In this document: piece after piece, positions 8,967 to 22,810 of the stretch | Layout of the letters: each line of letters starts with the position of its first letter | Position numbering within the stretch: the stretch's first letter is position 1 | NCBI GenBank assembly: GCA_019752235.1 | Contig: JAIEMI010000241.1 | Span: 1 to 32,623 of the forward strand | DNA from: Rhodospirillaceae bacterium | GTDB taxonomy: Bacteria; Pseudomonadota; Alphaproteobacteria; Rhodospirillales; Rhodospirillaceae | Direction: 5' to 3' | Length of the DNA: 32,623 bases | Made by a program: the position numbers and the translations under genes | Notes under the pieces: generated by a model | The model's input: the letters and a program-made list of their open reading frames with translations, nothing else | What the model was told of the DNA's origin: nothing | Databases searched by the model: none

Positions 8967-10259
8967 TTATGGAAACGCGTACATCCACAACAGCGCGCCG
9001 GCCGCCGTCATGCGGCTGGGACGCTCGGCCGCCTTGTTCGGATCGCGGCTGAAGGCGTAGTCGTAGATGTCGTTGCCCAGCATATCGCCCGGCTTTTTGT
9101 CGCCCGCGTAGGTGTACAGAGCGTAGCCCTTGTAGGTCCACTGACGGGTGCCGTCTTCGCGGGTGATGAGCTGGTAGAAGCCCGAGGGCTGCGCCTTGGC
9201 GTCGGCCTTCACGGGGTGCCACATGCTTTGGCAGGCGGCGTCACAGCCGGACATGCTGGTGCCGATGTCACGGCCCACGTGCGGGCGCGGCGGCACGCCG
9301 CGGCGGATGCCATGACCGCCAAGCTGATAGACGTAAGCATCGCGGCGATAAACCGTCATGCCCTTCGGTGTGGACAGCACATAGCCCTGACCGAGCGTCG
9401 GGTGGATGGAGATTTCGTTGGGCCGGAAGTAGCGCACGACCACCGCCGGTTCGAGTTTTTTGTCGAGGCCGATGGCGGCGGCGTAGCCGCTCTCATAATC
9501 GCCGTCGAAGGTGAACAGCGCTTTACCCTTGTAGGCCCACTGGCGGGTGGCGTCGTTGCGGATCACGACCGTGAAGTCGCCGACCGTGGAGGCCAGCTCG
9601 GGCGCGTGCAGGGGCTGCCAGTGGCTGACGCAGGGGCTGCCGCTGCAGGCAGGATCGGCCTTTTTCACGTTGCCGTCGAACGCGTAGATCGCCATGCCCT
9701 TGGCATTGACGAGCACCTGGCCGTTGGCGTCGGGGATTTCTTCAGCGGAAATGCCCGGCGGGAAAACGATACCGGCATTGGGATCGAACAGCGCGGTCTG
9801 CCAGTTGCCCTGATCGAGGCCGCGACCGTTGACGTCGCTGATCTTCGTGTCTTTGGTGTAGGTGTAGAGCGGCTTGCCGCGGAAGGCCCACTGCTTCTGA
9901 CCGTCGTCGCGGGTGACCAGCGACCAATTGCCGAAAGGCTTGGACTTCGGAAGCGCGATGGCGGGCGGCCATACGGCGGCGCATGCGGCCACGCAGGTCG
10001 CTTTGCCCGGGGCGTCGGCATCCGGCCCGTAGGTGTACAGGGTCATGCCTTTGGCGTCGGCATAAGCGAACTGCTGATTGCGATCGAGGTTGTAGCCGAT
10101 GATCAGGCCGAAGGTGATCTTGCCGACAAGCTGCACAGTGATGCCCGGCGGCGTCGCGAGCTGAGGAGTGTCATCGCCCTTCGCGAGGGCGGCGTTCGCC
10201 GTCGCGCCGACGCACAAAGCCGCAAACGCGGTAGCCCGCAAGAATCTTAGTATGCGCAC
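8967..10259 (-). CDS. Secreted-repeat protein (PF03640 / COG4315-like), multi-repeat
   Basis: A 430-residue exported protein starts at a GTG preceded by GGGGAGAGACATC. Residues 1-27 are a Sec signal peptide (cleavage near NAALA). The mature part holds several copies of the secreted-repeat unit marked by Y-x-[FYW]-x-x-D: LYTYGPD, LYTYTKD, IYAFDGN, FTFDGD, VYRRDA and LYTYAGD. Each full unit has a cysteine pair before a Trp: CVAACAAVW, CSGSPCVSHW and CDAACQSMW. WxLVTRDDG...QWAFRGKPLY-type blocks alternate with them. The family is widespread but has no settled function. It is the last gene of the minus-strand operon, 33 bases after DUF1552 copy 1, and its stop lies five bases from that of the convergent fusion gene. 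Confidence 0.85.
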   Translation of the reverse strand: MRILRFLRATAFAALCVGATANAALAKGDDTPQLATPPGITVQLVGKITFGLIIGYNLDRNQQFAYADAKGMTLYTYGPDADAPGKATCVAACAAVWPPAIALPKSKPFGNWSLVTRDDGQKQWAFRGKPLYTYTKDTKISDVNGRGLDQGNWQTALFDPNAGIVFPPGISAEEIPDANGQVLVNAKGMAIYAFDGNVKKADPACSGSPCVSHWQPLHAPELASTVGDFTVVIRNDATRQWAYKGKALFTFDGDYESGYAAAIGLDKKLEPAVVVRYFRPNEISIHPTLGQGYVLSTPKGMTVYRRDAYVYQLGGHGIRRGVPPRPHVGRDIGTSMSGCDAACQSMWHPVKADAKAQPSGFYQLITREDGTRQWTYKGYALYTYAGDKKPGDMLGNDIYDYAFSRDPNKAAERPSRMTAAGALLWMYAFP

Positions 10260-10292
10260 GATGTCTCTCCCCGTCGTCTCTGTCTTTGCCGC

Positions 10293-11630
10293 TTAGATCA
10301 TCACTTCAGTGATGGTCTTCGCCGTGCGGTTGGATTCCGTGCCCCAGTTGCTGGTCGGCACGCCCAGCGCTTGCTGGACCGTCAAGCCGACGCGGCTGGT
10401 GGTGTCCCCGTTGCACGGCACGTGCAGTCCGGTCTTGATGATGCTGCTGCCGCCGAAGGTGAACATGGGAATGTTCTCCAGCGAGTGGAACTTGGCGAAG
10501 CCGGTGTCGGTGCCGAACATGATGACGATGCGATCCAGCAGCGTCTTGTCGCCTTCCTTGATGGCGGCGAGGTCGCCGAGATAGCCTGCCAGGCTCGTCA
10601 GGCAGGTTTCCATGAACCAGTCCACATTAGGCTGGTAACCGACAGCGGGATCGACCGGCTCTTCGTGGGTATGGATGTGGAAGGTCACGGGGCTGGCCGC
10701 GCGGCGGATGTCGCCGCCGGCGCCGCAGAACACCATGTTGACCACACGCGACTGACCGCAGGCGAGGGCGTGGGCCACCAGCTTGGAGAACAGCTTGGCG
10801 TTTTTGACGCAGTCGTCGACCACCAGGCCGCGGGGAATAGTGTCGATGCCTTCGGCCTTGGTGCAGGCCGCCATGGGCGCGGGCTTTTGCAGTTCCAGCT
10901 CAAGCTTGCCTTCCAGTTCGCGCAGCGCGGTGAAGTACTCGTCGATGCGCGCTTTGTCCGAGGAGCCCAGTTCCTTCAGCAGGCCCTGACGTTCTTCCTT
11001 AAAGGCGGACAGCACGCTCTTGCGCGCCATGATCGCGGGATCGGGCGTGAACTCGGCGGCGTTCGGATCCTGGAAGTCGGGGCCGAAGATGCGGGTGTAC
11101 ATCGCCACCGGATCCGGCTCGGTCGGGTTGATGGCGCTGCGGCTGCGGCGGCTGTAGCTCTCGCGCGATCCGCTGCAGGACACTTCCAGCGAACGGAAGC
11201 GGGTGCGTGTGCCGATGTGGTCGGCCACCAGGCTGTCGACGCTGGGGAAGGCGTTCGGTTCTTCGGGGATGCCGCCGCCCATGACGGCGATGGCGCCGGT
11301 GGCGTGCACTTTCGGCGCATGCCCGTCGAGGAACACGCGCATGCCGCTATAGACGTTGATCTTGTCGCGGAACTTCGCGAGCGGCTTCAGCTGGTGCGTG
11401 ACTTCGTAATCGGCGCCGACCTTTTTCGGTTCCCAATAGCCGGGGTTGAGGCCGAGGCCTTGGAACCATGTGCCGAAGCAGGCGGGCAGCGCTTGACCGC
11501 TGGCGGCGAGCGCGGTGCCGTTCTCGTTCAGGAAGCCGTCGAGGAAAGGTAGCCCCAGCGTGACGGCGGAGCCGCCCAACATGCCTTTGAGGACGCGGCG
11601 GCGGCTGGCAAGACGGGATGTAGCGCTCAT
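10293..11630 (-). CDS. DUF1552 (PF07586) exported protein, copy 1
   Basis: This 445-residue protein starts with a Tat signal, ASRRRVLKGMLGGSAVTLGLPFLDGF, placed as in most DUF1552 proteins. PF07586 is named for an HxxSHH motif; here the matching place reads HIHTHE (in VTFHIHTHEEP), keeping the first His and the His before the last position but with Thr for Ser and Glu for the last His. Downstream are LLDRIVIMFGTDTG and the conserved H of FAKFHSLENIP. The fold is thought to resemble sulfatase/phosphatase-like proteins, but no activity is established. It starts after AAGGAGAGAGATC. It is a tandem paralogue of the gene at 11708-13045, of identical length, and the first 100 residues differ at only a handful of positions. 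Confidence 0.88.
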   Translation of the reverse strand: MSATSRLASRRRVLKGMLGGSAVTLGLPFLDGFLNENGTALAASGQALPACFGTWFQGLGLNPGYWEPKKVGADYEVTHQLKPLAKFRDKINVYSGMRVFLDGHAPKVHATGAIAVMGGGIPEEPNAFPSVDSLVADHIGTRTRFRSLEVSCSGSRESYSRRSRSAINPTEPDPVAMYTRIFGPDFQDPNAAEFTPDPAIMARKSVLSAFKEERQGLLKELGSSDKARIDEYFTALRELEGKLELELQKPAPMAACTKAEGIDTIPRGLVVDDCVKNAKLFSKLVAHALACGQSRVVNMVFCGAGGDIRRAASPVTFHIHTHEEPVDPAVGYQPNVDWFMETCLTSLAGYLGDLAAIKEGDKTLLDRIVIMFGTDTGFAKFHSLENIPMFTFGGSSIIKTGLHVPCNGDTTSRVGLTVQQALGVPTSNWGTESNRTAKTITEVMI

Positions 11631-11707
11631 GATCTCTCTCCTTCCGGCATCAAACTAGATTTATTCTAAACTTAGATAGTGAGCTTGCGCGCCACGTTCA
11701 AACGCTT

Positions 11708-13045
11708 TTAGACCATCACTTCGGTGATGGTCTTTGCCGTACGGTTGGACTCGGTGCCCCAATGGCTCGTGGGCACGCCCAAGGCTTGTTGGACGGTCAG
11801 ACCGACGCGGCTGGTGGTATCGCCATGGGCGGCAACGTGGATACCGGTCTTAATGATTCTGCCGCCGCCGAACGTGAACATCGGGATGTTTTCCAGCGAA
11901 TGGAACTTGGCGAAACCGGTGTCCGTGCCGAACATGATGACGATACGGTCGAGCAGGGTCTTGTCGCCCTCGCGGACGTTGTTGAGCTCGGTGAGGTAGG
12001 TTGCAAGACCGGTCAGGCAGGTTTCCATGAACCAATGCACATTCGGCTGATAGCCGATGGCCGGGTCGACCGGCTCTTCGTGTGTGTGGATGTGGAAGGT
12101 GACGGGGCTGGCCGGGCGGCGGCAGTTGCCGCTGGCGCCGTCGAACAGCAGATTGACGACGCGGGTCTGGCCGCACGCCAGCGCATGCGCAATCAGCTTG
12201 CTGAACAATTTGTTGTTGGCGACGATGTCGTCGATCACAAGACCCGCGTGGATTTCTTCGGGGCCCGACGCCTTGGTGCAGGCCGCAAGCGGAGCCGGCT
12301 TTTCGAGTTCCAGCGCCAACTGCGATTCCAGTTCGCGCAGCGCGGTGAAGTACTCGTCGATACGCGCCTTGTCGGAGGCGCCGAGGTCTTGGACCAAGCT
12401 CGCGCGTTCTTCCTTAAACGCCGACAGGACACTTTTGCGCGCCATGACGGCGGCATCTGGCGTGAACTCGGCGGCGTTCGGATCCTTGAAGTCGGGGCCG
12501 AAGATGCGGGCGTACACGGACAGCGGCGAGGTGTCGGATGGATTGACCGCGCTGGCGCTGCGGCGGCTGTAGGTTTCGCGCGTGCCGTTGCACGACACTT
12601 CCAACGAGCGGAAGCGCGTGCGTGTGCCGATATGATCGGCGATCAGGCTGTCGACGCTGGGGAAGGCCTTGGGCTCTTCCGGAATGCCGCCGCTGGTGAT
12701 TGCGACGGCGCCGGTGTTGTGGACCTTCGGCGGATGTCCGTCGAGGAACACGCGCATGCCGCTATAGACGTTGATCTTGTCGCGGAACTTCGCGAGCGGT
12801 TTCAGCTGGTGCGTGACTTCATAGTCGGCGCCGACCTTCTTGGGTTCCCAATATCCGGGATTGAGGCCGAGGCCCTGGAACCACGTGCCGAAGCAGGCGG
12901 GCAACGCCTGGCCCGTCGCGGCCAGCGCGGTGCCGTTCTCGTTCAGAAAACCATCCAGGAACGGCAAGCCGACCGTGACGGCCGTGCCGCCCAGCATGCC
13001 GCGCAGAACGCGGCGTCGGCTTGCGAGTTTAGAAACCGCGCTCAC
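11708..13045 (-). CDS. DUF1552 (PF07586) exported protein, copy 2
   Basis: The chosen start is a GTG that shares its first G with the TAG stop of the upstream DUF1592 gene (TAGTG), which gives a 445-residue protein, exactly the length of the neighbouring copy. A longer open frame exists but reaches back into the upstream gene. The Tat signal is ASRRRVLRGMLGGTAVTVGLPFLDGF. The variant motif HIHTHE is shared with copy 1, as is the late FAKFHSLENIP. The copies differ most around the segment after LAACTKA, and copy 2 has LLFDGASGNCRRPASP where copy 1 has MVFCGAGGDIRRAASP. One-base overlap implies translational coupling to the DUF1592 protein. DUF1552 and DUF1592-type genes are typically adjacent, but their joint role is not known. 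Confidence 0.88.
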   Translation of the reverse strand: MSAVSKLASRRRVLRGMLGGTAVTVGLPFLDGFLNENGTALAATGQALPACFGTWFQGLGLNPGYWEPKKVGADYEVTHQLKPLAKFRDKINVYSGMRVFLDGHPPKVHNTGAVAITSGGIPEEPKAFPSVDSLIADHIGTRTRFRSLEVSCNGTRETYSRRSASAVNPSDTSPLSVYARIFGPDFKDPNAAEFTPDAAVMARKSVLSAFKEERASLVQDLGASDKARIDEYFTALRELESQLALELEKPAPLAACTKASGPEEIHAGLVIDDIVANNKLFSKLIAHALACGQTRVVNLLFDGASGNCRRPASPVTFHIHTHEEPVDPAIGYQPNVHWFMETCLTGLATYLTELNNVREGDKTLLDRIVIMFGTDTGFAKFHSLENIPMFTFGGGRIIKTGIHVAAHGDTTSRVGLTVQQALGVPTSHWGTESNRTAKTITEVMV

Positions 13046-14766
13046 TATTTCTTCTCCGCCGCGGAAGCATCGGCAGCCTTTGTTTCTTCGGCTTGGTCCT
13101 TGACGCGATAGAAGGCGTCGCTGGTGGAAATCTGGCGCATCAGGCTGGGGATACGATAGCCGCCGTCGGCGAAGCCCTTCACCATGAACGCCATCCACTC
13201 GCGTTCGGCGCGCGTGGCGGTGCGGCCCGACGCGTAGGCGAACAGCTTGTTCACCAGGCACGAAGCGGTGGCCGGATCGTCGTGGATGGCCTGACCGAGG
13301 CCGATGGCATCGTTGTACTTTTTGCCGTTCAGGTCGCCGGTGGTGTCGATCGTCTCGCCGTTCTCACGCGTGCGGAAACCGGCGGCGGAATCGAAGTTCT
13401 CCATGGCGAGGCCGATCGGGTCGGTGATCTTGTGGCAGCCCGTGCACATGGCTTCCGTGGCGTGGGCCTTCAGGCGCGCGCGCGCGGTCTTGTAAACGGG
13501 GTCCGCCGTGTCTTGCACGACGTTGAACGCGACGTTGCCCGGCGGATCGGGAACGCGCTGGCAAAGCAGCACTTCACGCACGGCCTTACCGCGCACGGTC
13601 GGCGAACTGCGGCCCGGGTGCGAGTGCAGCGCGACGAAGCTGGCTTGAGTCAGGATGCCGACGCCGCGCGGATCGCCTTCGGGGTATTCATAGGGCGTCC
13701 ATTGGTCCGGCGCGCCGTTGGCGGTGACTTTCGCCACCGGCACGCTGTAAAGCGAACCCAGCAGCGGCGTCAGGAAGGTTTTGCGCGTCGTGAACAGGTC
13801 GCGATAATCGCCGTTCTGCGTCAGAACCTGATCGACGATGGTGCGCAAGGTCTGTTCCTGCGCGTCGTCAGCCGCGGCGCCCGTGAATTTCGGATAAATC
13901 TGCGGGTCTTTGGCGAAGTTGGCGAAGCGGTCGAATTCCAGCATGTCCGTGAAGAAGGCGCGCACGCCGTCTTCGAGGCGGGGGCTGGCCAGCATGCGCG
14001 TGACCTGCTTTTCCAAGCCTTTCTTGGTCTGGATTTCACCGCTTTCGGCCGCCGCGAGCAGCGCGGAGTCAGGCGCGGTGTTCCACAGGAAGAACGAGAG
14101 ACGCTGGGCCTTCGAATAAGAGTCCAGGCGGCGCATGCCGGGGTTCTCCGGATCGGCCTCGGACATCTCGTGGCGGAACAGGAACTGCGACGAGCTCAGC
14201 ATGCCGGCGAGGCTCAAGGACAGGCCGGAATAGAAGTTCTTCAATGTCGTGGCGGCTTCACCGGCCGCGGCGACGCGGAGCTGCAATTCCTGCTGCGTCA
14301 GCGGTCGGCGGTACAGCATGCGGCCGGCCTTCTCGAGGAACTGCCTGGCGCAGGCTTCGTCGGGCTGGCGGGTATTGGCGGGCTTGCAGGGGATCAGCGC
14401 GGCGCGGTGCTGTTCGTCCACCACTTGCGAGGCGATGGTGCGCGCCATGGTGTCGTATTGGGCGAGGCCGCTGATGGACACGCTGATGCCGCTGGTGCCG
14501 ACGGCGAGCAGGCCGTCTTTGCGGACGTCCGGTTCGAAGCGGCCGCCGAGCTTGATGTCGGGGCCGAACACGTCGCTGATGATCTGTTGATACTGGCTGG
14601 GCGTCAGACGGCGCACCATCGCGGGGCCGCCCGGCGATACAGGCTCGGCCTTGACCGCCGCCGGTGCCGCGAAAGTCGTGCTGCCGCCCATCATGGAGGT
14701 CAGCGCCAGCGCGCCGCAGGCGGCGGCGATGGTCAGGCGCGTGGTCAGCCGGTTTGAAATCTTCAT
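13045..14766 (-). CDS. DUF1587/1595/1592/1588/1585 multidomain protein with one haem-c site
   Basis: A 573-residue exported protein is taken from the ATG at 14764-14766 with GGTGGAAAC upstream; a GTG nine codons earlier is possible. After a signal peptide (to about residue 34) come the planctomycete-type domains in order: DUF1587 (RRLTPSQYQQIISDVFG, about 50-115), DUF1595 (FLEKAGRMLYRRPLTQQEL, about 130-195), DUF1592 (about 205-335), DUF1588 (about 345-450) and DUF1585 (about 460-545). CTGCH at 441-445 is a covalent haem-c motif, in the DUF1588 domain where the family carries it. This marks a periplasmic redox protein. Family genes usually pair with DUF1552, as here. Their substrate is unknown. 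The stop overlaps the start of DUF1552 copy 2. Confidence 0.88.
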   Translation of the reverse strand: MKISNRLTTRLTIAAACGALALTSMMGGSTTFAAPAAVKAEPVSPGGPAMVRRLTPSQYQQIISDVFGPDIKLGGRFEPDVRKDGLLAVGTSGISVSISGLAQYDTMARTIASQVVDEQHRAALIPCKPANTRQPDEACARQFLEKAGRMLYRRPLTQQELQLRVAAAGEAATTLKNFYSGLSLSLAGMLSSSQFLFRHEMSEADPENPGMRRLDSYSKAQRLSFFLWNTAPDSALLAAAESGEIQTKKGLEKQVTRMLASPRLEDGVRAFFTDMLEFDRFANFAKDPQIYPKFTGAAADDAQEQTLRTIVDQVLTQNGDYRDLFTTRKTFLTPLLGSLYSVPVAKVTANGAPDQWTPYEYPEGDPRGVGILTQASFVALHSHPGRSSPTVRGKAVREVLLCQRVPDPPGNVAFNVVQDTADPVYKTARARLKAHATEAMCTGCHKITDPIGLAMENFDSAAGFRTRENGETIDTTGDLNGKKYNDAIGLGQAIHDDPATASCLVNKLFAYASGRTATRAEREWMAFMVKGFADGGYRIPSLMRQISTSDAFYRVKDQAEETKAADASAAEKK

Positions 14767-14804
14767 CTTGGTTTCCACCGTTTTCTCTTTCACGTTTGGT
14801 TCGA

Positions 14805-15971
14805 TTAGCGCGTCTTGCTGTCGCGGCCGGCTTCGGCGGTCTGGCCCTCAACCTGAACGGTGAACGCCGGCACGCCTTCAATGCGATAGGCCGTCGAGAT
14901 ATGCGTGTTCTGACCGTTTTCGTCGGGGTAGGCGTCGGCGAGACGTTTCAGCGTATGATACATACCGATGAAATCGATACCGGCGCAGCATTCGAGCGCG
15001 ATGCCGCCGTTGGCGACACCCCAGTACGGATCGTCGTAGGGCTGATAGCCGCCGATGAAGCCGTCGATGTTGCCGTTGGGCAGCAGCTTCAGACGGAAGC
15101 GCGCGTCCTTGAAGCGGAACTCCTGCACGTAATAAGGGTCCGCGACCATGTTGAACCTGAAGGGCTCGGTCGTCGTGACCTCGCCATTCTTCAAATAACC
15201 CTTGGCTTCGCTGTGCGAGCGCGGGTTGGGGTCGATGCGGTAGGTCATGTCGGCGCGCGTCTGCGACAGTGCGTCCCACTTGGTCGCTTCGAGTGCGCGG
15301 TCGAAGATCACGTTGACGGGGCCGTCTTTCGTCAGGTCTTCACCGACGATGGTGACCAGCCACGCGGGTTGGGTGAGGCGGATGGTGTCCCACTGGTACT
15401 CGCCGCCCTGCAGCGGACGGTTGGGATAATAGGCGCGCATGCCGGTGTGGCAGCCCATGGCGCGGAAGAATTCGTTGTCGATGCCCTTTTCGCCGGTTTG
15501 CGGCTCGATGAAGGATTTCGGGCCTTCCTTGCCGTCCAGATTGAAGCCGAAGGACTTGTCGGCGGTGACGGTGAACATCACCGGATCGGGCGCGGCCAGC
15601 GGATTGGCGTAAGCATTCACGGGTTTGCCGTCGATACGGGCGCGATTGATGATGATCTCGCCGGCTTCATCGCCACCCGTGGTGCCGACGAACTTCTCGA
15701 ACATGCGCAGCTCTTCTTTGGGCTCCAGGTTCATCTGGCGGAGCGCGTGCTTATAAATGCCGTCGATGCTCGGGTTACGGCCGGGGCAGTCGTCATCTTG
15801 GGAGAAGATGGCGGGGGTGAACCAGCTCACCACGAAGCTCTTGGTCTGAGCGGCCTCGGCGCTTTGCAGGTTCGCCGTCGAAAAAGCCAAACCGGCCAAA
15901 GCCATAGCTAAGCCGCGCCCGTGGAAAATGGGACGATTCATTGCGCCACCCAATAAGTTAAGTACGTTCAT
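14805..15971 (-). CDS. Secreted protein of unknown function heading the DUF1592/DUF1552 operon
   Basis: The ATG at 15969-15971 follows GGAGGCAAGAAAGACAT; a second ATG at 15939-15941 and a GTG at 15992 are alternatives. The product (388 residues) has a signal peptide ending at SAEAA. The mature part contains no domain I recognise. Visible features are SQDDDCPGRNPS near the start, MGCHTGMRAYYPNRPLQGG in the middle (one Cys-His pair, not CxxCH), DPNPRSHSEAKGYLKNG, and a late ECCAGIDF. It is rich in Asp, Gly and aromatic residues, as in soluble periplasmic binding or hydrolytic proteins. It is 38 bases upstream of the DUF1592 gene and is the promoter-proximal gene of the operon. Confidence 0.72.
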   Translation of the reverse strand: MNVLNLLGGAMNRPIFHGRGLAMALAGLAFSTANLQSAEAAQTKSFVVSWFTPAIFSQDDDCPGRNPSIDGIYKHALRQMNLEPKEELRMFEKFVGTTGGDEAGEIIINRARIDGKPVNAYANPLAAPDPVMFTVTADKSFGFNLDGKEGPKSFIEPQTGEKGIDNEFFRAMGCHTGMRAYYPNRPLQGGEYQWDTIRLTQPAWLVTIVGEDLTKDGPVNVIFDRALEATKWDALSQTRADMTYRIDPNPRSHSEAKGYLKNGEVTTTEPFRFNMVADPYYVQEFRFKDARFRLKLLPNGNIDGFIGGYQPYDDPYWGVANGGIALECCAGIDFIGMYHTLKRLADAYPDENGQNTHISTAYRIEGVPAFTVQVEGQTAEAGRDSKTR

Positions 15972-16034
15972 ATGTCTTTCTTGCCTCCACACAAGAAAGC
16001 GCCTCCCGGCGTCCGGCGGAGCCTTACCTAGACG

Positions 16035-16519: not shown

Positions 16520-16607
16520 CAGCACCAGACCGAGCTGATTGCATAACTCGACACGACGCTGAGATCGCTTCTGCGACTGCCAACGCCACATAAGGAGGGC
16601 CTCTCTA

Positions 16608-17819
16608 ATGGCAAGTGAACTTTCTTCGGAAAATCAGACTGATTCGCCAGTGACGGCTGAATCCCCCGCGGCGCCCCGCAAGGGTTTGCGTCGTCGTTCT
16701 TTCATGCAGGCCCTCGGCGGCGTCGCCGGCGGTGTGGCGGTGATGGCCGGCGCGACGCGCGCTAAAGCCGGCAACAGCTGGGACAGCGCGACCGACCTGT
16801 CCGACGAAAAGCTGATGGAGATGTACACCAAGATGCTGAAGTCCCGTTGGTGGGAAGAAGGCATGAAGGACGTGTTCCTGAAGGGCGACGACAAGATGTA
16901 CGGCGTTTGCCATTTGTACATCGGTGAAGAAGCCGTCGCCGGCGGCTGCATCGGCGCGCTGAACGACGACGACTACATCGTCAGCCACCACCGCGGTCAC
17001 GGCCATCTGATCAACAAGGGCGGCGATCTCGATAAGATGTCGGCCGAAATGTTCTTCCGCGAAGGCGGCTACAACAAGGGCTTCGGCGGCTCCATGCACA
17101 TCACCGATGTCAGCAAGGGCATCCTGGGCATGAACGGCATCGTCGGTGTCTCGCACATCCTCGGCGCCGGCGCCGCTTACGGCATCAAAGTCCGCGGCGG
17201 CAAGCAAGTCGCCGTATCCTTCGGCGGTGACGGTTCGGTCAACAACGGCTGGTTCTACGGCGCGCTGCGCAACGCGGCGCTCTACAAGCTGCCGTTCATC
17301 TCGGTCATCGAGAACAACGGTTTCCAGGTCGCGATCCCGACCACGGAAACCATCTCGGTGCGCGACCTGTCGCAGATCGGCAAGGGTCTCGATATCCCGA
17401 GCTACACCGTCGACGGCCAGGATATCTTCGCCGTGTACGCCGTCATGAAGCGTGCGGTGGACCGCGCGCGCAATGGCGAAGGCCCGACCCTGATCGAAGC
17501 CAAGACGCACCGCTTCTACGACCACGCCGGTATGGCGCGCGCGAAGATCGGTACGTTGGGCGCCTTTGGTCTGCCCTATCGTTCGGACCGCGACGTGCAC
17601 GCCTGGATCGCCAACGATCCGCTGCCGAAGTTCAAGAACGCGCTGATCAATCTCGGCTTGCTGGATGAAAAGAAGGCGGCCGCGTTGGAAGCGGATGTGA
17701 AGAAGCAGGTGCAGGCTTCGATCGAGTTCGCGCGTAAGAGCCCGATGCCGAAGCAGGAGATCGGACTCAGCAACGTCTTCGCTCAGGGCACCGTGTCCCC
17801 GAGCCAGTTGCACGCCTGA
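16608..17819 (+). CDS. TPP-dependent dehydrogenase E1 alpha subunit with Tat signal peptide
   Basis: This 403-residue protein starts at an ATG with AAGGAGG upstream. Residues 28-34 read RRRSFMQ, then a hydrophobic stretch to TRAKA (about 54): a clear Tat signal, foreign to normal E1 alpha proteins. The rest (about 350 residues) is an E1 alpha of the pyruvate/acetoin dehydrogenase type: HRGHGH (128-133), GFGGSMHITD, GDG (207-209) followed after 26 residues by NN (236-237) for Mg-TPP, and HRFYDHAG for the active-site loop. Relatives decarboxylate 2-oxoacids or cleave acetoin and pass the acyl unit to a lipoyl E2. No E2 or E3 follows here. I infer a periplasmic enzyme with another electron acceptor, probably the cytochromes at 19238 and 19691. 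The substrate is unknown. Confidence 0.92.
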   Translation: MASELSSENQTDSPVTAESPAAPRKGLRRRSFMQALGGVAGGVAVMAGATRAKAGNSWDSATDLSDEKLMEMYTKMLKSRWWEEGMKDVFLKGDDKMYGVCHLYIGEEAVAGGCIGALNDDDYIVSHHRGHGHLINKGGDLDKMSAEMFFREGGYNKGFGGSMHITDVSKGILGMNGIVGVSHILGAGAAYGIKVRGGKQVAVSFGGDGSVNNGWFYGALRNAALYKLPFISVIENNGFQVAIPTTETISVRDLSQIGKGLDIPSYTVDGQDIFAVYAVMKRAVDRARNGEGPTLIEAKTHRFYDHAGMARAKIGTLGAFGLPYRSDRDVHAWIANDPLPKFKNALINLGLLDEKKAAALEADVKKQVQASIEFARKSPMPKQEIGLSNVFAQGTVSPSQLHA

Positions 17820-17861
17820 TCCGTCCTTGCATCGATTAGCCCTCTAAAGGAGCTCAAAACA

Positions 17862-18836
17862 ATGGCCGTTAAACCTGGCAATTACGCCATCCTGGAAGGC
17901 ATCCAGGCTGAAATGAAGACCAACAAGGATCTGACCATTTTCTGGCAGAACCGCCCGACGGCGGTGAGCCCGATGGGGAAGGTCATCGATCTCGGCAAGG
18001 AATTCGGCAATGCCCGCATTCCGCAGTACACCGCGATCGACGAGGAGTGGTACATCGGTGCTTGCGCCGGCATGGCGCTGACGGGTGTTCCGTCGATCGC
18101 TCATACGCCGTACATGTGCACCACGCGCGCGTTCGATCTGGTCTTCAACCAGATCGGCAAGCTGCGTCACATGACCGGTGGTCAGGCTTCCATGCCGATG
18201 GTGATTTGGCAGGACGGTGCGGGGCGTCAGCCCGGCATGGCCGGCCAGCACGCCGACGCCGGTCAGGAATCGCTCTATGCCGCGATTCCCGGCATCAAGG
18301 TTGTGATCCCGTCCAACCCCTACGACGCCAAGGGCCTGATGATCGCCGCCATCCGCGATCCGGACCCGGTCATCTTCTGGCACTACGGTCAGATCAACGC
18401 CGTTCAGACCGATGTTCCGGATGAAGCGTATGAAGTCAAAATCGGCGAAGCCAAGCTCGTTCAGGAAGGCACCGATATCACCATCGTCGGCTACGGTCCG
18501 GCCATGGTCGAAATCAACAAAGCCATTCCGGGCCTGAAGGCCGCGGGCATCAATGCGGAAATCATCGATCCGCGTTCGTTGAAGCCGCTGCCGATCGAAG
18601 CCATCGCGGCTTCGGCCAAGAAGACGGGCAAGCTGCTGGCGGTCGACCACGGTCACGAAACGCTCTGCGGCGTGACCGAAATCATCGCGCGCTGCGCCAT
18701 GATGGGCGCGGGCAACAAGTTCCATCGTCTGGCGTTCCCCGACGCTCCGCCGCCGGGCAACAAGGAGATGATCGGCTGGATGACTCCGGACGCTCCGAAG
18801 ATCGTGGCTGCCGCAAAGAAAATGATGACGGCTTAA
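17862..18836 (+). CDS. TPP-dependent dehydrogenase E1 beta subunit
   Basis: A 324-residue E1 beta of normal length, 42 bases after E1 alpha and with AAGGAG before its ATG. It keeps Glu61 (in IDEEWYIGACAG), which aligns with the glutamate that activates the TPP aminopyrimidine ring. It also keeps the AGQHADAGQESLY and GIKVVIPSNPYDAKGL segments of the interface, and the C-terminal transketolase domain ending DPRSLKPLPIEAI and VDHGHETLCG. It has no signal peptide or membrane segment. E1 enzymes are alpha2beta2, with TPP bound between the subunits. If alpha leaves by Tat, beta must either travel with it as a folded complex, as known for Tat-exported hydrogenases, or the enzyme stays inside. Confidence 0.92.
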   Translation: MAVKPGNYAILEGIQAEMKTNKDLTIFWQNRPTAVSPMGKVIDLGKEFGNARIPQYTAIDEEWYIGACAGMALTGVPSIAHTPYMCTTRAFDLVFNQIGKLRHMTGGQASMPMVIWQDGAGRQPGMAGQHADAGQESLYAAIPGIKVVIPSNPYDAKGLMIAAIRDPDPVIFWHYGQINAVQTDVPDEAYEVKIGEAKLVQEGTDITIVGYGPAMVEINKAIPGLKAAGINAEIIDPRSLKPLPIEAIAASAKKTGKLLAVDHGHETLCGVTEIIARCAMMGAGNKFHRLAFPDAPPPGNKEMIGWMTPDAPKIVAAAKKMMTA

Positions 18837-18854
18837 GACGGCAAGGATATGGAA

Positions 18855-18888
18855 GGGGGGTGGGGCGCAAGCTCCACCCTTCTTTATT
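18855..18888 (+). terminator. Rho-independent terminator or attenuator after E1 beta
   Basis: GGGTGGGGC (18858-18866) pairs with GCTCCACCC (18871-18879), with one wobble, around a GCAA tetraloop of the stable GNRA type, followed by TTCTTTATT. It should end most transcripts after E1 beta and leave lower expression of the genes after it, unless they have their own promoter. Confidence 0.75.
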
Positions 18889-18908
18889 CCGGCCGGAGTG
18901 GTATTTAA

Positions 18909-19202
18909 GTGACGGATCAGGCTGCCGAAGACGCTCCCTTTCTGTGCGAGAGCTGCGGCGGGCCGACCTCCAAAAAGGTGGCTCAAGTGACGCTCTGGAG
19001 CGGTGACCAGCTGGTTCTGGTCGAGGATGTTCCGGTACACATTTGTGACAAATGCCAGGAGCAGTATTACGACGAACACACCGGAGAGGCCGTACTCCAG
19101 CTCGCGAGCGGCGGCTTTCCACAGGAATACAAGGTGCGCGATATCACCGTGCCGGTTTTTAGACTGCCGGACGGCGTGATTACGCCACAATCTGAAGATT
19201 AA
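18909..19202 (+). CDS. YgiT-type zinc-finger protein
   Basis: A 97-residue protein starts at GTG 18909, with GGAG ten bases before it. Two Cys pairs, CESC (about 13-16) and CDKC (about 48-51), would bind one zinc. The intervening DVPVHICDKCQEQYYDEHTGEAV matches the YgiT/MqsA N-terminal zinc domain. The helix-turn-helix half of MqsA-type antitoxins is absent, and there is no toxin gene nearby. The C-terminal segment YKVRDITVPVFRLP is of unknown role. It has no signal peptide, so it is cytoplasmic, while its neighbours on one side are secreted haem proteins. Its place between E1 beta and the cytochromes could mean an accessory or regulatory role, which is inference. Confidence 0.8.
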   Translation: MTDQAAEDAPFLCESCGGPTSKKVAQVTLWSGDQLVLVEDVPVHICDKCQEQYYDEHTGEAVLQLASGGFPQEYKVRDITVPVFRLPDGVITPQSED

Positions 19203-19237
19203 ATCGAACTTCGCGCTGTATTTGGAAAGGTGCTGAA

Positions 19238-19648
19238 ATGATCAAGACAATGACTGCCCGTGTTGCCGCCGTCGCCGGTATGTTGGCTTTGAGCGCCATG
19301 GGTATGAGCGCCCCGGTCTCGGCGCAGGAAGAATTCGACGTTAATAAGGTGTTCTGGTGCGACGCCGGAACAAAGACCGGCGAACAGACCGAAGCGGAAT
19401 GCATCGCGTCGCGCGAAGCCATTCTCGGTCAGTGCACCGTCTGCCACGCCATCACGCCGATCGTGAAGGCGCAGAAAGACAAGAAGGGCTGGGTTGCCTT
19501 CATGCAGACCCACAAGACTCGCACGCCCGACATCGCGGATGACGTTTATAGCGGCATGACCACATTCCTCCAGGGCCACTATAACCCGCAGAACCCGGTG
19601 CCGAAGCTGCCGCCGGAACTCGACGCGCTCGGCGTGCCGCCGGCGTAA
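19238..19648 (+). CDS. Secreted small c-type cytochrome, copy 1
   Basis: This 136-residue protein has a Sec signal peptide (1-29, cleavage at VSA) and one haem-c motif, CTVCH (66-70). Two more cysteines lie before it, Cys41 (VFWC) and Cys55 (AEC), then SREAIL. After the motif the only residues shared with copy 2 that could be the sixth haem ligand include His92 (QTHK), 22 residues after His70. The C-terminal HYNPQNPVPKLPPEL matches the FNPKLEPPEVPPEL of copy 2. The layout is unlike ordinary class I cytochromes with an MP-type ligand loop. GGAAAGG precedes the ATG. It is probably a periplasmic electron carrier for the E1 enzyme encoded upstream (inference). Confidence 0.85.
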   Translation: MIKTMTARVAAVAGMLALSAMGMSAPVSAQEEFDVNKVFWCDAGTKTGEQTEAECIASREAILGQCTVCHAITPIVKAQKDKKGWVAFMQTHKTRTPDIADDVYSGMTTFLQGHYNPQNPVPKLPPELDALGVPPA

Positions 19649-19690
19649 CCGGACCGGAACCAAAGCGTCTAAACTTAAGGAAGATCAGGT

Positions 19691-20089
19691 ATGGCTAGAA
19701 TGTTTTCGTTAAAGGTCACGGGCGTGCTTGCCGCCGCCGCTTTCATATTCCTCGTATTCCCCACGGCGCCGGCCAAGGCGCAGGACTTGGATATGAAGCA
19801 GATCTTCCGCTGTCAGGCTAAGGACAAGGCCGGTATCGCGCATTGCGATAAGTCGCGCGAAGTCATCCTCAACAACTGCACGACCTGCCATGTGTTCGTG
19901 GCCATCGTCGTGCAGCAGTTTGACAAAGCCGGCTGGGACGGCCTGTTCGACCGTCACAAGGGCCGCGCCGCGCAGTTGAACGACGCGCAGCTTGAAGACA
20001 TCAAGTCCTATTTGGTGGCCAACTTCAATCCGAAGCTGGAACCGCCGGAAGTGCCGCCCGAGCTCCTGAAAGAGTGGACGGCTTACTAA
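19691..20089 (+). CDS. Secreted small c-type cytochrome, copy 2
   Basis: This 132-residue paralogue of the preceding gene has a signal peptide (1-30, cleavage at AKA), Cys41 (IFRC) and Cys52 (AHC), SREVIL, then CTTCH (63-67). There is no methionine at all after the haem motif, so Met ligation is excluded. His89 (DRHKG) lies 22 residues after the haem His67, the same spacing as in copy 1, and is the best candidate for a bis-His haem. The C-terminal part is NFNPKLEPPEVPPELLKEW. AAGGAAG precedes the ATG, 42 bases after copy 1. The two together could form a relay or a pair bound to each half of the E1 tetramer; this is inference. Confidence 0.85.
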   Translation: MARMFSLKVTGVLAAAAFIFLVFPTAPAKAQDLDMKQIFRCQAKDKAGIAHCDKSREVILNNCTTCHVFVAIVVQQFDKAGWDGLFDRHKGRAAQLNDAQLEDIKSYLVANFNPKLEPPEVPPELLKEWTAY

Positions 20090-20365: not shown

Positions 20366-21796
20366 ATGCTGTTTAACTCATTCGGCTTTCTCGGCTTCTT
20401 TGCCGCTGTCGCGATTCTCTATTACCTAGCGCCGCACCGCTGGCGCTGGGTGCTGCTGCTGATCGCCAGCTACTACTTCTATTCCGCCTTCGACCTGAAA
20501 TACCTGCTGCTGCTGGGCTTCTCGACGCTGGCGGCATACGGCGGCGCGCTGTGGATCGGCAGGGGCGGCGGCAAGGCCGCGCTCACCATTGGCGTGCTCG
20601 TGCAGCTTTCGGTGCTGTTCGTCTTTAAGTATTTCGATTTTTTCGCCGGCGCCATCGAAGACGCCATGCTGTCCTTCAATGTCGTCAGCGAAGCCATTGC
20701 GCTGCCGCGTTTAAAGCTATTGTTGCCCGCGGGGCTGTCCTTCTACGTCTTCTCCGCCATCAGCTATCAAGTCGACGTACATCGCGGCACGGTTCCGGCG
20801 GAAAGCCACCTCGGCAAGCTCGCGGTCTACATCGCCTTCTTTCCGAAGCTGCTGGCCGGTCCTATCGAGCGCGCCGGTACGTTCCTCGGCCAGCTGAATA
20901 CGCCGGTGGCCTTCAGCGCGGCGGGCGTCACGGCGGGCCTACAGCTGATGGCCTGGGGCCTGTTCAAGAAGGTCGTGATCGCCGACCGCTTGGCGGCCTT
21001 TGTCGACGCGGGCTTCACCAATCCGGCTTTTCAGTCGCCGGTCACCGTGCTGATCGCGGTTTATTTCTACGCCTTCCAGATTTACTGCGATTTCTCGGGC
21101 TATTCCGACATCGCCATCGGCGCGGCGCTGGTGCTGGGCTTCCGCCTGATGGAAAACTTCAAGCGCGCTTATCTCGCGCGCTCGGTGCCGGAATTCTGGA
21201 ACAGCCGCTGGCATATTTCCCTGGCGCGCTGGTTCCGCGACTACCTTTACATCCCGCTGGGCGGCAACCGCGTCGCCAAGTGGCGCCAATATATCAACGT
21301 CATGATCGTCTTCCTGGTCAGCGGCCTGTGGCATGGCGCCAACTGGACCTTCATCATCTGGGGCGGCCTCAACGGCCTCTATCAGATCATCCACGGCCTG
21401 TTGTCCGCGCCGCGCCGCATTTTCACCAGGATGCCGGCTTGGCTGTCGACGTTCCTGGCGATCTTCATCACCTTCCACGCGGTCGCGCTGGCCTGGGTGT
21501 TCTTCCGCGCCACGTCGGTCAAATCCGCCTGGGCGGTGCTGACCAAGATTTACGGCGCGATCCCGCAGTTGCCGACGCTGGTGAAGGGCTACACCTTCAG
21601 CGGCGAGTTCTACCTGTCCATCGGTCTGATCGTTTTCCTCATGACCGTGGAAATCTTCGACGAACGTAAGCCGGTCTCCCAACGCCTTCTGGCCATGCCT
21701 CGCGCGGTGCGCTGGGCGTTCTATTACGCCGTGATCTTCGCCATTCTGGTGATCGGCGTCTGGAACACCAAAGGCTTCGTCTACATGTCGTTCTAA
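20366..21796 (+). CDS. AlgI-like MBOAT family O-acyltransferase
   Basis: This 476-residue integral membrane protein has about ten hydrophobic segments. It starts MLFNSFGFLGFF, as AlgI-type proteins do. It carries the family blocks YFYSAFDLKYLLLL, FYVFSAISYQVDV, FPKLLAGPIERAG, QIYCDFSGYSDIAIG, FWNSRWHISLARWFRDYLYIPLGG and SGLWHGANWTFIIWG; the last contains the catalytic His. Relatives carry acetyl groups across the inner membrane to acetylate alginate, cellulose, teichoic acid or other glycans with the help of a periplasmic SGNH/DltD-like partner, which follows here. No polysaccharide synthesis genes are present, so the acceptor is unknown. The best ribosome binding site, GGGGGAAG, sits before an overlapping seven-codon ORF (20353-20376) whose stop lies just inside this gene. 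Confidence 0.92.
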   Translation: MLFNSFGFLGFFAAVAILYYLAPHRWRWVLLLIASYYFYSAFDLKYLLLLGFSTLAAYGGALWIGRGGGKAALTIGVLVQLSVLFVFKYFDFFAGAIEDAMLSFNVVSEAIALPRLKLLLPAGLSFYVFSAISYQVDVHRGTVPAESHLGKLAVYIAFFPKLLAGPIERAGTFLGQLNTPVAFSAAGVTAGLQLMAWGLFKKVVIADRLAAFVDAGFTNPAFQSPVTVLIAVYFYAFQIYCDFSGYSDIAIGAALVLGFRLMENFKRAYLARSVPEFWNSRWHISLARWFRDYLYIPLGGNRVAKWRQYINVMIVFLVSGLWHGANWTFIIWGGLNGLYQIIHGLLSAPRRIFTRMPAWLSTFLAIFITFHAVALAWVFFRATSVKSAWAVLTKIYGAIPQLPTLVKGYTFSGEFYLSIGLIVFLMTVEIFDERKPVSQRLLAMPRAVRWAFYYAVIFAILVIGVWNTKGFVYMSF

Positions 21797-21808: not shown

Positions 21809-22810
21809 ATGATCTCGCAAGATCTCAACAAGGAACTGACCATCGCGGAGGCCGCGCAGGCTTCTGATTCCATGACTTGGAAAAAGGCATGGGCGATTTT
21901 CGTGGCCGTCGGCGTCGTTCTCTATGTCGCGGCGTATGTGCACGCCGAGCGTCTGGTGATGACCTATGGCCAGCACAGCCGCTGGTTCATGACCGCCACG
22001 GCGCCGAAGACGGACTACGACATCGTCATCCTGGGCGCGTCGCACGCCATGCCCTTCGCCTACGACGATATGAACCGGCGTCTGGAAGAGGCGACCGGCG
22101 CGTCGATCATCAATTTGTCCATCGAGGGCGGCGGCATCGTTCCCGCGCGCTTTAACCTCGACTATTTCCTGGCCGGTCACACCACCAAAAACGTCGTCTA
22201 CGTTTTGGATTCTTTCGTGTTTTATGCGCGCCAGTGGAACGAGGATCGCATCAACGATCCCAAGCTGACCAGGCGCGCGCCCTTCGATCCGGCGCTGGTG
22301 GCCACAATGTGGAAGTATCCGGCGGCGCGCGATCTGATCCCCGGTTATGTCTCGGGCTTCTACAAGATCAATAATGCCGATCGTTACGCGCTGGACGTGG
22401 CCGAGAACGAAGGCAAGGCCTTTGATAAGGTCTACAAGCCGAATAACGCCATCGACCGCCAGCGCCTGAAGTATCTGTTTCCTGCGGAGATCGATCAGGA
22501 TGTGATGAACGGCTATCTTGCGTCGTTCAAGGAGATGGCGGAGACACTCCACCAGCGCGGCATCAAGCTCACGGTGATCCGCACGCCGCTGCCCGCGCGC
22601 GTGTCGCAAAAGCTCACGGGCGAAGCCGAGTTCAACGCGAAGATCGAGGAAATCCTGCGGCCCTATGGCTTCGCAATGCACGATTTCTCAGGCGTCGATA
22701 ACGATGAAGGGCTGTATTACGACACCGACCACTTGAACCGCGCCGGCGTCACCAACTTCATGAACAACCACTTGGTGGATTTGCTGAAGAGTCTCTCGCC
22801 GCAGTCATAA
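21809..22810 (+). CDS. SGNH/AlgJ-like partner protein of the MBOAT acyltransferase
   Basis: A 333-residue protein 12 bases after the MBOAT gene, with AAGAGAG before its ATG. One membrane helix (about 27-45, KAWAIFVAVGVVLYVAAYV) anchors it with the rest in the periplasm. SGNH features are GASHA (about 75-79, with Ser in the nucleophile position) and the late YYDTDHLNRAG, which gives the Asp-x-x-His-like pair as DTDH. The INLSIEGGG block would be the Gly/Asn part. Such proteins move the acyl group from the MBOAT protein onto a glycan. The same-strand spacing indicates co-translation. The last bases overlap the convergent YkgJ-type gene (stop at 22805). Confidence 0.78.
   Translation: MISQDLNKELTIAEAAQASDSMTWKKAWAIFVAVGVVLYVAAYVHAERLVMTYGQHSRWFMTATAPKTDYDIVILGASHAMPFAYDDMNRRLEEATGASIINLSIEGGGIVPARFNLDYFLAGHTTKNVVYVLDSFVFYARQWNEDRINDPKLTRRAPFDPALVATMWKYPAARDLIPGYVSGFYKINNADRYALDVAENEGKAFDKVYKPNNAIDRQRLKYLFPAEIDQDVMNGYLASFKEMAETLHQRGIKLTVIRTPLPARVSQKLTGEAEFNAKIEEILRPYGFAMHDFSGVDNDEGLYYDTDHLNRAGVTNFMNNHLVDLLKSLSPQS

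Follow-up and report, generated by a model that had tools for sequence, protein, structure and literature searches.

A rare, conserved seven-gene set pairing a predicted Tat-exported E1 enzyme with two putative secreted c-type cytochromes

Seven genes in a row on the forward strand of a Rhodospirillaceae contig (JAIEMI010000241.1 of the assembly GCA_019752235.1, the 32,623 nucleotides of which are termed the window below) encode the α and β subunits of an E1 enzyme dependent on thiamine diphosphate (ThDP), a YgiT-type protein with four Cys residues (Cys4), two putative secreted mono-haem cytochromes (cytochromes A and B), an MBOAT acyltransferase and an SGNH-type protein (Table 1). This gene set is rare yet conserved, and its E1α bears a signal of the twin-arginine translocation (Tat) pathway. 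On balance, we favor the view that the seven genes specify an extracytoplasmic ThDP oxidoreductase, in which a Tat-exported E1 would pass electrons to its own cytochromes and the free acid would be released. The five genes from E1α to cytochrome B had been singled out in an earlier interpretation made from the letters alone (the sequence-only reading), and all five proved to be real, correctly placed and on one strand. The set drawn in that reading was nevertheless incomplete, as the MBOAT and SGNH-type genes belong to it as well. The source genome comprises 3.82 Mb in 346 contigs, one of which is the window, and is 79.5% complete.

The loci compared in this study were gathered in two ways. 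A scan of species genomes for E1β, which used only two peptide patterns and thus sets a lower bound, recovered 20 loci, namely 13 of the kind seen in the window and 7 contrast E1 pairs. Surveys of whole genomes with an E1α profile added 8 further loci, bringing the total to 22 with the window. When the seven window proteins and their counterparts from Roseovarius marisflavi served as tblastn queries, the genes were detected in the order E1α, E1β, YgiT-type, cytochrome A, cytochrome B, MBOAT and SGNH in 19 of the 22 loci, the window included. In these 19 loci, E1α is accompanied by E1β and both CxxCH families, the adjacency about which the sequence-only reading had asked. The set is cut off by contig ends in L047 and L062. 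In the Gemmatimonadota locus L054, the genes for E1α, E1β and the YgiT-type protein are followed by those for a CxxCH protein of another type and a member of the pyrroloquinoline quinone (PQQ) membrane dehydrogenase family (L054:2878-5276; 773 bits, below the cut-off of 832.65), and no match to the MBOAT or SGNH-type protein was found on this 6150-base contig. Not one of the last five genes of the set was found in the contrast loci, 7 in number, of which two carry only about 2 kb past E1β.

In the 7 genomes searched with the E1α profile, members of this kind scored 573-798 bits, other E1α sequences at most 263 bits and a truncated copy in G026 195 bits; the nearest complete relative of the window sequence was found in G742 (438.6 bits with the E1α profile). 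Sixteen of the 22 loci are in or near Rhodobacteraceae, 8 of them as judged by record title or taxonomy and the other 8 by the family survey, and one is of Gemmatimonadota. The family of R. marisflavi contained 11 carriers of this E1α kind among 345 genomes, R. marisflavi itself included. The carrier itself was the only one detected among the 346 genomes in the phylum of the Gemmatimonadota carrier, the 398 in the phylum of the window, the 4 in the order of G431 and the 3 in the genus of G742. The order and the class of the window were surveyed with the window E1α alone at an E-value of 1e-75, and the counts are thus lower bounds: at least 1 of 317 and at least 2 of 385 genomes, respectively, carry this E1α kind, the truncated copy in G026 falling below the cut-off. 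Among the carriers are the named isolates R. marisflavi DSM 29327, Sediminimonas qiaohouensis DSM 21189, Seohaeicola saemankumensis IOP_23 and Chelativorans xinjiangense lm93. No relative was found in viral contigs. E1α-like matches occurred in 710 plasmid records, all with less than 60% identity, and the 20 matches listed reach 41.7% identity at most and start at residue 52 or later, that is, outside the signal. Among the open-licence papers of PubMed Central (PMC) that were listed, none describes the gene set or an exported E1 of this kind, as judged by titles and abstracts.

The case for export starts from the N-terminus of E1α. The string RRRSFMQ at residues 28-34, with a hydrophobic stretch and then AKA behind it, was confirmed as the sequence-only reading had given it. 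Since AAGGAGGG forms a strong ribosome-binding site 8 nt ahead of the ATG, we regard this ATG as the start codon of E1α and the Tat signal as part of the protein; the ribosome-binding site, together with the conserved N-terminus, rules out a wrongly assigned start. RRxF and AxA, with the hydrophobic stretch recognized by eye, were found in all 20 complete E1α sequences of this kind, down to 36% identity to the window protein (in L044 and L046 the beginning of E1α is missing, and any signal there is out of sight). Thus, no complete homologue with these neighbours was found to lack the motif; a homologue of that sort would, according to the sequence-only reading, have refuted its proposal. Among 40 other E1α sequences, a single one (L061) matched the loose pattern RRx[FLIVM] ahead of the match region, and the N-terminal extension that holds the match was judged by eye to be no signal. 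By motif and eye, the Tat signal is therefore present in 20 of 20 sequences of this kind versus 0 of 40 others, the latter being the loci at hand rather than a random sample, including the zero-distance pair L055/L056 and having N-termini that may begin upstream of the true start. A Tat-like string arising by chance is ruled out by this difference. In a quick, midpoint-rooted tree of 60 E1α sequences, the 20 Tat-type sequences fell on one side of a branch with a Shimodaira-Hasegawa-like approximate likelihood ratio test (SH-aLRT) value of 99.

Altogether, the export of the E1 pair by Tat is strongly supported as a prediction from the signal. E1β would need to ride along on E1α, as it has no signal of its own; PaoABC is a precedent for such hitchhiking of multiple subunits, PaoB and PaoC riding with PaoA (PMC4273604). 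We hold it to be very improbable that the Tat-like N-terminus is unused, or serves only as an anchor, and that a cytoplasmic E1 works with a lipoyl E2/E3 pair encoded at a distance. Such an arrangement would agree with the window's own genome, 79.5% complete, in which no match to TatC (PF00902) was found and other E1 genes occur, one of them (L001) beside a lipoyl motif. It is at odds with the conservation of RRxF, the hydrophobic stretch and AxA in the distant homologues and their absence from the other E1α sequences, with the remodelled outer loop for lipoyl contact (see below) and with the Tat-like signals seen by eye in two DUF1552 proteins of the window, which suggest that the organism possesses the Tat pathway. 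The same assembly holds several Tat-like signals despite the missing TatC match.

The catalytic residues of the E1 pair are intact. H102, R129, D208, N237 and H306 of E1α are kept in all 20 Tat-type sequences in the alignment; H306 is matched in human E1α by the latter His of HGH and is presumably equivalent to H271α of Geobacillus stearothermophilus E1. E61 and H130 of E1β, which align with the catalytic Glu and His of the bacterial E1β 3duf_B, are invariant in all 22 rows. With both subunits matching their families and the catalytic residues in place, the pair has the hallmarks of a 2-oxoacid dehydrogenase E1, and the window E1α scored 272.7 bits against the pyruvate dehydrogenase E1α equivalog TIGR03182, below the cut-off of 393.85.

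The outer loop, on the other hand, departs from the usual form. Counted from just past the catalytic His to the next conserved Arg, both ends included, it spans 20-26 residues in the Tat-type E1α versus 10-13 in the other E1α, and H-x-x-x-D after the catalytic His was found in none of the 20 Tat-type sequences versus 36 of the 40 others. According to PMC2663715, the outer loop of G. stearothermophilus E1 becomes structured upon cofactor activation and engages the lipoyl domain. As the outer loop is remodelled and the catalytic residues are retained, the part of the enzyme serving lipoate would have changed and the part making the enamine would have stayed. The same paper states that G. stearothermophilus E1 produces acetate with the artificial acceptor 2,6-dichlorophenolindophenol (DCPIP), and that its inner-loop mutant I206A has 1331% of the DCPIP activity and 35% of the complex activity of the wild type. 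At the site corresponding to I206, four residues past the Asn of ENN, 17 of the 20 Tat-type E1α sequences have Q and that of the window has V. GEEA in place of GQEA, found at residue 107 of the window E1α and in L092 (2 of the 20), is the natural counterpart of the mutant Q81E, which is given as neutral in PMC2663715.

No lipoyl family was detected among the operon proteins of the window by family profile search, in line with the claim of the sequence-only reading that the operon contains no lipoyl E2, albeit this absence does not discriminate it from the contrast loci. The sole lipoyl-like string of the window, on the minus strand, stands in a context that is not lipoyl-like, and a motif search near the related loci gave nothing convincing, 2 of 21 having a chance string. 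The contrast E1α sequences of L055-L061, from Paracoccus, Ruegeria, Litoreibacter, Acidovorax and others, show a separate peculiarity: all 7, two of which are at zero distance, have Glu in place of Asp in the ThDP motif (GEG) and Asp in place of Asn in ENN, and may possibly represent an E1 variant with an altered metal site.

Cytochromes A and B are paralogues, 39% identical to each other over residues 9-125. In the alignment of 20 cytochromes from 10 loci, CxxCH was found in every row and C63, C66, H67, W82, N113 and P122 were invariant. A His occurs 22-25 residues past CxxCH in all of the 20 (22 in the window and L044; 24 or 25 elsewhere), while 4 of them, including cytochrome B of the window, have no Met anywhere after CxxCH. 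For these reasons, His-His ligation of the haem is a reasonable guess for cytochrome B. The structural model of cytochrome B, with a predicted local distance difference test (pLDDT) score of 82.5, has SorB (2blf_B) as the nearest solved fold, which is a weak match (Z 5.1, root mean square deviation (rmsd) 4.0, 80 aligned residues), and the SorB profile gave 17.4 bits, below the cut-off of 93. Cytochrome A of L053 and L084 has GQFCH where CxxCH is expected, and these loci also show a broken MBOAT frame, perhaps as a result of decay or assembly error. Just past the operon in a metagenome-assembled genome of Roseovarius (L051:11942-13312), a gene encodes a distant relative of selenite/tellurite reduction cytochromes that bears 11 CxxCH motifs.

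The sequence-only reading had a periplasmic E1 using the haem proteins as its electron acceptors. The export in this proposal gained support from the Tat signals in all 20 complete sequences, whereas the constant company of the cytochromes (19 of 22 loci) fits the acceptor role rather than establishing it. It is unlikely, in our estimation, that the exported E1 carries out non-redox ThDP chemistry, such as carboligation or simple decarboxylation, and that the cytochromes serve another enzyme. That an E1 can carboligate is reported in PMC7696235, and the cytochromes may have a redox partner other than E1. Nevertheless, the two mono-haem cytochromes are constant members of the set, there is no other oxidoreductase among the seven conserved proteins, and even the divergent Gemmatimonadota locus encodes a CxxCH protein.

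The MBOAT and SGNH-type genes must enter any mechanism, as they are no less constant than the cytochrome genes (19 of 22 loci). H323 of MBOAT was found in 19 of 20 rows, the remaining row being a gap, and both GASHA and DxDHLN of the SGNH-type protein were invariant in 12 of 12 rows from 12 loci. The pair thus retains the conserved His on one side and Ser, Asp and His on the other, which we take to be the catalytic residues. The model of the SGNH-type protein (pLDDT 86.4) has an N-terminal helix predicted to be an anchor, and matches TesA (Z 15.2, rmsd 2.4, 165 aligned residues), PatB (Z 12.6-12.8) and DltD (Foldseek E-value of 1.8e-4); we predict that the protein has the SGNH fold and is related to DltD and PatB. 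Neither the gaps within the set of the window nor its immediate flanks contain a ligase or carrier gene, DltA and DltC included (the comparison of the other loci, which drew on 19 of the 22, covered frames of 90 amino acids or longer). Broken frames were seen for SGNH in L089 and for MBOAT in L053 and L084, perhaps because of assembly error.

These two genes give a rather slim chance to the idea that the set encodes a 2-oxoacid dehydrogenase complex rebuilt outside the membrane, with the cytochromes in place of lipoamide and E3, and SGNH and MBOAT in place of E2. The acyl group would then go onto a surface polymer or lipid, and the oxidation would both feed the respiratory chain and drive acylation without CoA or ATP. 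The constancy of the pair with its polar residues kept, the predicted anchor and the fold related to DltD and PatB, and the lack of a ligase or carrier gene within or right next to the set in the window are all consistent with this idea. However, the E1 pair of L054 is followed by other genes without a match to MBOAT or SGNH on the contig, the MBOAT/SGNH pairs known so far draw their acyl groups from cytoplasmic donors, and we know of no link from acyl-ThDP to the serine of an SGNH protein.

The YgiT-type protein of 97 amino acids scored 36.9 bits against TIGR03831 (cut-off 20.2). All 21 rows have C46 and C49, and all but a truncated one (20 of 21) also have C13 and C16, such that the CxxC...CxxC finger of MqsA/YgiT is present with its four Cys residues conserved. 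The match to TIGR03830, over residues 13-63, reached 17.2 bits (cut-off 61.8). Neither a C-terminal helix-turn-helix nor a toxin partner was found at the locus, ruling out a toxin-antitoxin interpretation of this gene. The gene sits between those of E1β and a cytochrome in the 20 loci that hold all three families, and likewise between E1β and the CxxCH protein in L054.

We propose the following course for the extracytoplasmic oxidoreductase. E1α and E1β would fold with ThDP in the cytoplasm and be exported together by Tat, E1β travelling on the signal of E1α. In the periplasm, the E1 heterotetramer would decarboxylate a 2-oxoacid (or cleave an acyloin) to yield enamine-ThDP. The long outer loop, which is probably unsuited to a lipoyl domain, would leave access for the two mono-haem cytochromes, and these would accept the two electrons in single steps and pass them to the respiratory chain. 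Water or another nucleophile would take the acyl group, the simplest product being free acetate. The Cys4 protein would probably be an aid to assembly or export, or else a regulator, and MBOAT and the anchored SGNH-type protein may together act as an O-acyltransferase of the envelope within the same physiology. The Gemmatimonadota locus, in which the same E1 and YgiT-type genes are combined with a PQQ-type dehydrogenase and a CxxCH protein of another type, counts in favor of this course.

Genes in the wider neighborhood, counted by tblastn with one representative per family in the 22 loci, offer a suggestive clue to acetate recovery and low-oxygen life. In 6 of the 22 loci (L050, L051, L052, L085, L087 and L090; 891 bits in L051, cut-off 729) and in none of the 7 contrast loci, a homologue of acetate--CoA ligase is encoded no more than about 3 kb from the operon. 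This enzyme would recover acetate made outside the cell, and its distribution fits acetate as the product. A CRP/FNR-type regulator, which hints at low-oxygen life, and subunits of an F1F0-type ATPase were each found near the operon in 4 of the 22 loci, and a host-attachment/baeRF protein in 3 of the 22; none of the three occurs in the window or in the 7 contrast loci.

Several points weigh against the proposed oxidoreductase. Besides the missing TatC match, the E1α tree was flagged for long branches, including the one that joins the window to the rest, and the absence of nearby lipoyl motifs is no evidence because all 7 contrast loci have none either. Met is also constant at +30 and +46 in the eight cytochromes A of the Rhodobacter type, which makes a His-His haem less certain for these, and the fold search with the cytochrome yielded no strong match (Foldseek E-value of 1.2) and proves nothing. 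The YgiT-type protein bears no export signal, and its role is unaccounted for by the proposal. The acetate--CoA ligase was found near 6 of the 22 loci only and not in the window. Finally, free acetate as the product leaves the MBOAT/SGNH pair with no obvious role.

Table 1. Features of the window in and around the seven-gene set.
Feature	Position	Strand	Remark
Ribosome-binding site AAGGAGGG	16592-16599	+	8 nt ahead of E1α ATG
E1α with Tat signal	16608-17819	+	403 amino acids; PF00676, E=1.3e-64
Tat signal of E1α	16608-16769 (about the first 54 residues)	+	RRSFMQ, hydrophobic region, AKA
E1β, no signal	17862-18836	+	PF02779/PF02780
YgiT-type Cys4 protein, no export signal	18909-19202	+	TIGR03831 above cut-off
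Cytochrome A, secreted mono-haem c-type (CTVCH)	19238-19648	+	CxxCH and signal sequence; conserved position
Cytochrome B, secreted mono-haem c-type (CTTCH)	19691-20089	+	no Met past haem motif; His at +22
MBOAT acyltransferase, DltB-like	20366-21796	+	PF03062, E=1.9e-28; DltB, E=1.6e-24
Membrane-anchored SGNH-type protein, DltD/PatB-like	21809-22810	+	S78/D305/H308; weak DltD similarity; predicted SGNH fold
Divergent neighbour cluster	8967-15992	-	members given in the text

The divergent cluster upstream of the operon encodes two tandem DUF1552 proteins (HXXSHH), a DUF1592/1588/1595 protein with CxxCH, a protein with no Pfam match (14805-15992) and a Lipoprotein_15 repeat protein. These five proteins were rejected as a part of the system, as they were found in 0 of 20 loci, and a second set of 9 loci gave one short match, which covers 26 residues of the DUF1592 protein and lies in L085. 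Scans of the window for promoters and terminators did not clearly exceed those of shuffled sequences (1 versus 2.5 and 11 versus 8.1 with a standard deviation of 3.3, respectively).

ThDP-dependent E1 enzymes are, by the textbook, cytoplasmic or mitochondrial and hand the acyl group to lipoate. If the proposal is true, E1 chemistry can take place in the periplasm and supply the respiratory chain directly, the long-known side reaction of E1 with DCPIP acquires a physiological meaning, and a new class of Tat cargo is added. Whether acylation in the envelope can be driven by oxidation is a question posed by the constant presence of the MBOAT/SGNH pair. As the carriers include cultured isolates, direct testing is possible.

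Among known systems, the E1 of pyruvate and branched-chain 2-oxoacid dehydrogenases (α2β2; TIGR03182, PDB 1ni4, 1w85 and 3duf) shares both subunits, the ThDP motif and the catalytic His and Glu with the E1 pair described here, which differs in the Tat signal, an outer loop longer by 7-16 residues and the lack of a lipoyl family in the operon. Acetoin:DCPIP oxidoreductase (AcoAB) is alike in the E1 pair and the ThDP chemistry. The acetoin dehydrogenase E1 has been assayed with the artificial acceptor DCPIP, but is cytoplasmic and works with a lipoyl E2/E3; AcoAB is not known to have cytochromes or a Tat signal, both of which are present in the gene set here. The sulfite dehydrogenase SorAB resembles the proposed system as an exported enzyme with its own mono-haem cytochrome, and cytochrome B is nearest to SorB, albeit weakly, in profile and fold; the enzyme in SorAB is, however, a molybdoenzyme in place of a ThDP-dependent E1. 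DltB/DltD and PatA/PatB likewise combine a DltB-like MBOAT with an anchored SGNH protein bearing Ser, Asp and His, whereas the operon in the window has no ligase or carrier gene and its pair is tied to a putatively exported E1 and cytochromes. PoxB and pyruvate:ferredoxin oxidoreductase also perform oxidative decarboxylation without lipoate, passing electrons to other acceptors. These two enzymes carry flavin adenine dinucleotide or Fe-S clusters and stay inside the cell, while the redox cofactors of the system proposed here would sit on separate secreted cytochromes.

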